Source: Bacteroidota bacterium
GTDB lineage: Bacteria; Bacteroidota; Bacteroidia; Bacteroidales; F082
Assembly (NCBI GenBank): GCA_003232915.1
Contig: QIKE01000147.1
Span: 1-42,554 of the forward strand
Length of the DNA: 42,554 bases
Reading direction: 5' to 3'
Made by a program: the position numbers and the translations under genes
Notes under the pieces: generated by a model
The model's input: only the letters and a program-made list of their open reading frames with translations
Told to the model about the DNA's origin: nothing
The model's database searches: none
Shown: piece after piece, positions 16,676 through 40,583 of the stretch
Position numbering within the stretch: the stretch's first letter is position 1
Layout of the letters: each line of letters starts with the position of its first letter

Positions 16676-17770
16676 ATGATACCTCGTATTATTAAAGATA
16701 AAGTAAATTGCGAATTATCATTAAAAAGGATGATTATCATTCTTAGTAGGGGCAGAGTCGGAAAAGCCATCTTTCTCTATGAGTTATGAACAAAAAAAAG
16801 CAATGTTATAATCTTTAAGGGAGATGAACCCGACACAAAAGATAGACTACGCATTACATTTATATAGTTGAATTTTTTTTTAAGGTAAAAATAATGATGG
16901 TTGATGAAGCACTGTTTATTCCCGATATAGAAATTACACTGAAATTGAAAGCTGGTTATATTCCTGAAGTACAGTTATTTATTTACAGTTCATTATCCAT
17001 TGAGATGGCCATTAAAATAAACGAACCGTTGACAGAACGCAAAATAGGAATGTTTTTTATACCCTGTTTCTTTCAAAAAACGATCAATTATCACGGACTT
17101 ATTTGAGAAAAATTATTTTTATCTACACGCATACTTGATGGTTATTATCCCGACATCATTAACAATTGAGGGTATAAAATAAAGTTGTTAAAAAATCGTA
17201 ACTATTCAGCCGGTTTGTAATGCTAAATATAAACTTGATACTATAAAACTGATTTAATAAATATTCAAATATTATTTCATAATAAAATTTTATTTCATTG
17301 ATATTCTGTAGGTAACGTTTTGTTGAAATTTGATTAAAAAATATTAATGCTATAATGTTCAATGTGTTAACTATGTCATTTCGGCTGAATAGTTACGAAA
17401 AATCTTATGGGAAGTTACCATTATAAAGATATTCTTTCCTTAGGTGAAATTAAAAGACCAGTGATTTTCGACAAATTGTTGGAAGTACTTGCGTTGCAAG
17501 TAGGTAGCTAAATTTCATGCAACAAACTGAGTAGAATGTATGGAACGGATAAGGATACAGTGAAACAGTATATTGATTTACTGGAAAAGTTATTTATAAT
17601 TTTTCGATTAAATGCGCTGAGTCCCAATGTTAAGGAGTCAAATAAAAAAGGCAAGGAAATTAACTTTTTTGATAATGAGATTAGAAACGTCCTCATTGGC
17701 ATTTTTCAATCTTTTGAAAATAGAACTGACAACGAATCTTTATGAGAAAATTTTATCGTAAGCTGACGAG
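16676..17770 (+). pseudogene. DUF4143-type ATPase pseudogene, interrupted by a 201-bp insertion
   Basis: A nearly complete ATPase can be pieced together. It starts at ATG 16676 (MIPRIIKDKVNCELSLKRMI), has a Walker A relic ILSRGRVGKAIFLYEL, FKGDEPDTKDRL, then in another frame VDEALFIPDIEITLKLKAGY (Walker B area), IKINEPLTERKIGMFFIPCF, INYHGLI, DGYYPDIINN, then the insertion at 17197-17397, then SYHYKDILSLGEIKRPVIFD, LSRMYGTDKDTVKQYIDLLE and RNVLIGIFQSFENRTDNESL. Stops interrupt it repeatedly, including TAA at 17509-17511 and a TGA near 17743 where Trp is expected, and the DUF4143 C-terminal end is missing. The 70-aa and 69-aa ORFs in the track are fragments of this gene, not separate genes. 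Confidence 0.85.
17197..17397. mobile_element. 201-bp MITE-like insertion with 16-bp terminal inverted repeats
   Basis: The left end CGTAACTATTCAGCCG (17197-17212) is the exact reverse complement of the right end CGGCTGAATAGTTACG (17382-17397). AAAAAT flanks both sides (17191-17196 and 17398-17403), consistent with a 6-bp target duplication. The interior is very AT-rich and noncoding. Removing the element and one AAAAAT gives LLKN followed directly by LMGSYHYKDIL in the surrounding ATPase pseudogene, in frame. No transposase in the window is an obvious parent. Single copies of the terminal sequence occur near 40.3-40.5 kb. Confidence 0.8.
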
Positions 17771-17808
17771 TTAATAATCCACTTTTTTAGAAGTTGGTTT
17801 TTGAGCAG

Positions 17809-39791: not shown

Positions 39792-39934
39792 CATAATTTT
39801 CGGCTCCGCAATCGAAAATTATGCCAAAACGGTGCTGACATTTTTTGTACCACGGGTTTAAACCCGTGGAATGGCAAAGCCATTATTCCACAGGTTAAAC
39901 ACCAGTGGCTATTATTATTACGCTCCTTCGGAGC
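39792..39934. repeat. Cluster of REP-like palindromes
   Basis: Five palindromes follow each other: CATAATTTTCG/CGAAAATTATG (39792-39802 with 39813-39823); the perfect 20-bp CCACGGGTTTAAACCCGTGG (39850-39869); AATGGC-AAA-GCCATT (39870-39884); the imperfect CCACAGGTTAAACACCAGTGG (39888-39908); and GCTCC-TTC-GGAGC (39922-39934). Such stacks occur at the ends of IS200-like/REP-associated elements, and a REP-type transposase remnant lies at 42386-42554. The 74-aa and 88-aa ORFs across it are artefacts. Confidence 0.75.
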
Positions 39935-40583
39935 TCTATAATCATTCTTCTGTGCGTCGAATTTATTTATCATGGGGGGATTCATGTCAATAAATTCTTT
40001 AAATCGGCCTTGCATGTTTGATTAAGTGATTAGAAGAATCCGGTTACGGTTTTATGAAATTTGTCAGGGATTTCATAATATTTTGTATACAGTTTTTTCT
40101 TCTCTGAAAATGTATAAATTTATTCCGTTTTAAGTATAGCAAGGCAAAAATTACCCGGCATTTTGTGATATGTACAACAATAGTAACCAAGTATCAAAAC
40201 AGGGATGATGAAGAATATCAACAACATCTTCTTTAATACTCTAACAGAAAAAAGATTTTATTATGAAAAAAATTTGAATGTTCATTAAATCCACCTCATC
40301 GTATCATGTTGATTCTTAGTATTGTAAGTCGGATGAATAATTACGAAAATTTTAACCCAACAAACACTCTACCCTAATAAATTATTAATAATTAAGTGTT
40401 TATAACTTGTTCCTGTAAAATTGAAAGAGTTGGCCTATTTATTTGTACTTTTGGCGGCTGAATAGTTACGCCCATTTAAATCTATCGGTTCATCAGTAAG
40501 GTGTCTATGATATGATATAAAAAAAACCTGACATATCATCGGAATGTTCAACCCCTTTGTTTAAAAAGAATTGTTTCAAATCA
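39935..40583. other. Intergenic region with solo MITE-end copies and a hairpin
   Basis: No gene. CGGCTGAATAGTTACG at 40455-40470 is identical to the terminal repeat of the element at 17197-17397. CGGATGAATAATTACG at 40330-40345 is a two-mismatch copy in the same orientation. ATGATATG/CATATCAT (40507-40514 with 40532-40539) forms an 8-bp stem. Confidence 0.6.

Follow-up and report, generated by a model that had tools for sequence, protein, structure and literature searches.

An insertion in a DUF4143 ATPase pseudogene of a Bacteroidota bacterium as one copy of a putative IS66-linked MITE family

The question raised by the locus

In a 42,554-nucleotide stretch of DNA from a Bacteroidota bacterium (hereafter the window), a degenerate ATPase gene is interrupted by a short AT-rich segment with inverted ends. 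Is this segment a mobile element, and, if so, which type of transposase moved it? The initial annotation, made from the window alone, had read it as a MITE-like insertion. Our analysis supports this interpretation and now names the probable parent type as IS66-family, single-ORF (ISBst12-like): judging from the sequence comparisons described below, the feature is very probably a copy of an IS66-type MITE that is non-autonomous and was mobilised by a transposase of this kind. The source genome comprises 2.53 Mb on 162 contigs and is 86.6% complete; the window corresponds to contig C7.

Boundaries of the element and target duplication

The insertion is confirmed and, given its many copies in the genome, lies far outside what chance would produce. 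The two arms of its inverted repeat agree without mismatch for 17 bp (17196-17212 and 17382-17398). According to a comparison of copies, two of these 17 base pairs are flanking sequence, and the element's own ends measure 15 bp (Table 1). Thus, the terminal inverted repeats were rightly described as exact in the initial annotation, but not their length of 16 bp. Similarly, the proposed 201-bp insertion stands as an insertion, but its boundaries move by 1 bp at each end to give a 199-bp element, which contains no long reading frame.

A 6-bp target duplication (AAAAAT) had been proposed to flank the 201-bp element. Since this cut and the 199-bp/8-bp cut each remove 207 bp, the reading-frame argument cannot separate them, but the other copies can. 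Among 28 full copies, the match fraction between the two flanks peaks at k=8 (0.68 vs 0.18-0.48 at other k), and a permutation test supports a duplication length of 8 bp (p<5e-5). A perfect duplication borders 8 of the 28 full copies with flanks, and 13 of 28 match at 7 or more of the 8 positions; for shuffled flanks, a mean of 0.64 was expected and the maximum was 5 in 20,000 trials. The shorter duplication around a 201-bp element is therefore ruled out by the population of copies, and the 8-bp duplication of the window copy contains one mismatch.

Table 1. Features of the window and complete elements with the same ends in other genomes.
Feature	Position or source	Strand	Description
AAA/DUF4143 ATPase pseudogene, split by MITE	16676..17772	+	tblastn of intact homologues L112, L113; PF13635 E=3e-16
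Target duplication, left copy AAAAAATC	17190..17197	+	compared across copies
MITE	17198..17396	+	199 bp, AT-rich, without transposase gene; 28 further full-length copies define the boundaries
Left terminal inverted repeat GTAACTATTCAGCCG	17198..17212	+	15 bp
Right terminal inverted repeat GTAACTATTCAGCCG	17382..17396	-	15 bp, as read on minus strand
Target duplication, right copy GAAAAATC	17397..17404	+	7/8 identical to left copy AAAAAATC
MITE-like left part	40137..40344	-	~208 bp; 85% identical to C75:9241; adjoins parent IS end
Parent IS66-type left end (GTAACTATTCAGCCG...)	40345..40469	-	125 bp; 82% identical to C50 remnant left end
Complete element L166	Methanosarcina MAG		1602 bp
Complete elements L169, L178	Pseudomonadales genome		1527 bp, 479-codon frame

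The interrupted ATPase gene and its empty site

Intact homologues of the ATPase, 62-66% identical, are encoded in the relatives G012, G004, and G009. All three read LLKNLAGSYLYKDIL unbroken across the junction, where the window has LLKN, the insert, and LMGSYHYKDIL. Because these intact DUF4143 ATPases read straight through, the empty site is confirmed. The earlier proposal that removal of the element restores the order of a DUF4143 ATPase thus agrees with the homologues in relatives, and loci without the insert, which it had suggested to look for, exist in the form of these genes. Insert and duplication together comprise 207 bp (3 x 69), and the frame is kept. A TAA stop codon can be read from the sequence at 17218-17220, soon after the start of the element; as it lies inside the insert, the gene product would be truncated. 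The MITE is one among several defects of this gene, which also has in-frame stops at several places, a change of frame around 16850-16861, and an altered Walker A motif. Compared with the intact homologues, no C-terminal part (the last fifth) is recognisable in the pseudogene.

Copies in the source genome

BLAST of the element against the genome yielded at least 41 matches, and a 25-bp core pattern at least 43 (reversed control, 0). Both searches together place the element, full or partial, at 48 or more distinct sites; this count is a lower bound, with 40 of 123 candidates scored. Full copies are about 196-217 bp long and occur in two length forms of ~198 and ~207 bp, which differ by a 9-bp AAAAATATT-like stretch. 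Their mean pairwise identity is 84%, and the family is hence not young. Nearly all copies for which this could be judged lie between, not inside, flanking ORFs of at least 100 aa; several are located at contig ends, and one adjoins the IS66 remnant C75 (see below). The initial annotation had suggested searching the genome for its end sequence in pairs, and this pairing is seen in many genome copies. Neither of the two outcomes that it had named as refuting the insertion, unpaired ends or intact homologues with the segment, was observed. In the 11 congeners searched, the MITE was not detected beyond short AT-rich partial matches.

The elements are short, lack a transposase gene, possess terminal inverted repeats, and form dispersed copies with target duplications, as is characteristic of MITEs. 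Furthermore, they have their ends in common with autonomous elements, namely the IS66-type remnants in this genome and complete IS66 elements elsewhere. A different sequence at G000:C46:1618 (L010:1501) has the same GTAACTATTCAGCCGG end, is slightly longer than 200 bp, terminates with CCGGCTGAGTGGTTAT, and is flanked by AAAAATAT and TAAAATAT. It probably represents another MITE family with the same ends.

IS66 remnants in the genome and in the window

Three IS66 transposase remnants are the sole PF03050 matches identified in the genome by profile search. The C75 remnant matches PF03050 with E=5e-16 and also NF033517, the latter below its cut-off as expected for a fragment. In the C75, C33, and C14 remnants, the TAG stop codon of the transposase lies within the terminal repeat (...ATAGTTAC), and in the C50 remnant the left end GTAACTATTCAGCCGC precedes a degenerate transposase N-terminus. 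An intact IS66 transposase was not found in the 86.6%-complete assembly. As every IS66 copy found in the genome is broken, movement of the MITE seems to have stopped, and the family is probably immobile now. The interior of the MITE is unrelated to the IS remnants, with the ends alone common to both; an origin of the MITE by internal deletion of the IS is therefore unsupported.

That the window lacks a parent transposase, as observed earlier, is correct as far as coding genes are concerned; it nevertheless contains a left end of the parent IS (Table 1). The first 99 bp of the adjoining MITE-like part are 77% identical to the MITE. Both this part and G000:C75:9241-9447 start with a MITE-like end, and no right terminus was seen in either; they may be partial elements or belong to another, longer family. 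An IS66-type element of ~683 bp at G000:C33 (L060), in which an internal deletion fuses the N- and C-terminal parts of the transposase between the ends, is a possible intermediate size class. Tandem short repeats (GGTTTAACCTGTGGAATAATGG) occur within the C50 IS remnant (L011 ~2050-2500) and in the window at 39850-39957 (-). Type IX secretion tail domains are found in proteins of the window contig, which points to Bacteroidota.

IS66 elements with the same ends in other genomes

A transposase fragment from another genus of the same family is 71% identical to the C75 remnant protein and terminates with GCGGCTGAATAGTTAC, which shares 15 identical bp with the MITE end. In each of the complete elements (L166, L169, L178), one IS66 transposase lies between two GTAACTATTCAG ends, and the flanking duplications are perfect and, as in the MITE copies, 8 bp long. 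These distant same-end elements are 1.5-1.6 kb long with one transposase frame, and their transposases have low similarity (about 24%) to that of the C75 remnant; in this genome, the remnants are too damaged for their ORFs to be counted. The IS66 transposases found in plasmid records had ~31% identity or less. A transposase with the same ends, the search for which the initial annotation had recommended, is thus found at three levels: as IS66 remnants here, as a fragment in a relative, and in complete distant elements.

Among described elements, ISDge4 (ISBst12 group, IS66 family) has the ends GTGACTACTCAGCA/GTAACTGCTCAGCA and a single ORF of 449 aa, duplicates 8 bp of its target, and has been observed to transpose (PMC12898284). 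Its GTAACTGCTCAGCA end closely resembles GTAACTATTCAGCC of the MITE, and both elements have an 8-bp duplication. The one IS66 transposase frame of the elements with the MITE's ends may correspond to the single-ORF arrangement of the ISBst12 group. Unlike insertion sequences of this group, the window element is non-coding, has ~15 bp per end in common with them, and its interior is unrelated.

Because the stop codon of single-ORF IS66 transposases falls within this same terminal repeat, the ends would identify the mover, and we infer that an IS66-type transposase did the moving. A single-ORF (ISBst12-like) enzyme would have recognised the 15-bp ends and inserted the 199-bp element into the DUF4143 ATPase gene, and fill-in of the staggered cut would have generated the 8-bp target duplication.

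Alternative explanations

An 8-bp duplication by itself is not specific to IS66 and does not single out this family, so that the MITE might owe its movement to a different transposase family with 8-bp duplications (e.g., ISL3, IS256, ISAs1, IS6, or IS1595). The IS6-family element ISPpa9, for instance, is listed with such a duplication (PMC3281130). However, genes for IS66 transposases extend into this GTAACTATTCAG end here, in relatives, and in distant genomes, and since complete IS66 elements have such ends we regard a mover from another family as very unlikely. Still less credible is any kind of non-transposon repeat, including regulatory repeats and structured intergenic RNAs. The single strand does fold better than shuffles (z = -3.8), but the closing stem is the terminal repeat itself, and the inner pairs lack covariation: of 30 pairs, the 2 with double changes belong to the terminal stem, and the covariation term is -0.28. 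With covariation confined to this stem and an Rfam search that returned no match for the element, a conserved RNA is ruled out; moreover, only an insertion accounts for the 8-bp duplications and for the empty site seen in relatives. The idea that the segment belongs to the original ATPase gene, with repeats that arose by chance, can practically be dismissed, as the intact homologues lack it and it recurs at 48 or more places in the genome.

Comparison with known MITEs

The IS66-type MITE has counterparts in other bacteria. MITECca01 of Cardinium cOegib is an IS982-derived MITE with 169 copies, which are sometimes located within other mobile elements or genes (PMC9769881). The MITE described here likewise appears to be an IS-derived element that multiplied in a Bacteroidota genome and is mostly intergenic; however, MITECca01 has an IS982 parent with intact copies, whereas here the parent would be of IS66 type, and intact copies of it were not found. 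MITEPsy1 of Pseudomonas syringae, 100 bp long and probably derived from ISPsy2 (PMC3189936), is also a short non-autonomous element that has its ends in common with an IS and interrupts genes. It differs by a 4-bp duplication, a suggested IS5-type parent, few copies, and experimentally shown transposition (PMC3189936). In the open literature searched, we found neither a described IS66-linked MITE nor a quotation of the terminal inverted repeat sequence of this MITE. The window element therefore constitutes a new MITE family, but the type of element is already known, and it is a fairly ordinary mobile element. Its value lies in being a well-supported IS66-linked family, which shows such MITEs filling a genome whose matching transposases are broken, and in an end motif that can be used to find similar elements across phyla.

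Paired ends in other genomes

A scan of genome contigs retrieved 41 stretches with paired ends 150-180 bp apart, a spacing set by the search pattern, so that length is not independent evidence. They occur in Planctomycetaceae and Treponema MAGs, Methanosarcina, Methanolobus, Desulfobacteraceae, and others. Duplications match at 7 or 8 of 8 positions in 23 of the 41 distinct paired-end elements, significant similarity to the window element is restricted to the ends, and IS66 transposases are present in 14 of 18 genomes with such elements. These observations lead us to favour, with some reserve, the view that IS66 (ISBst12-like) transposases repeatedly gave rise to MITE families of ~180-210 bp across bacterial phyla and archaea, which would have only the GTAACTATTCAG end in common, with interiors unrelated between hosts, and would form a widespread, largely undescribed class. 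In a Planctomycetaceae MAG (L154, 763-961), a 199-bp element has the same end type, and the inverted match between its two halves continues far past the ends; by its sequence, it appears to be a near-palindromic form of MITE.
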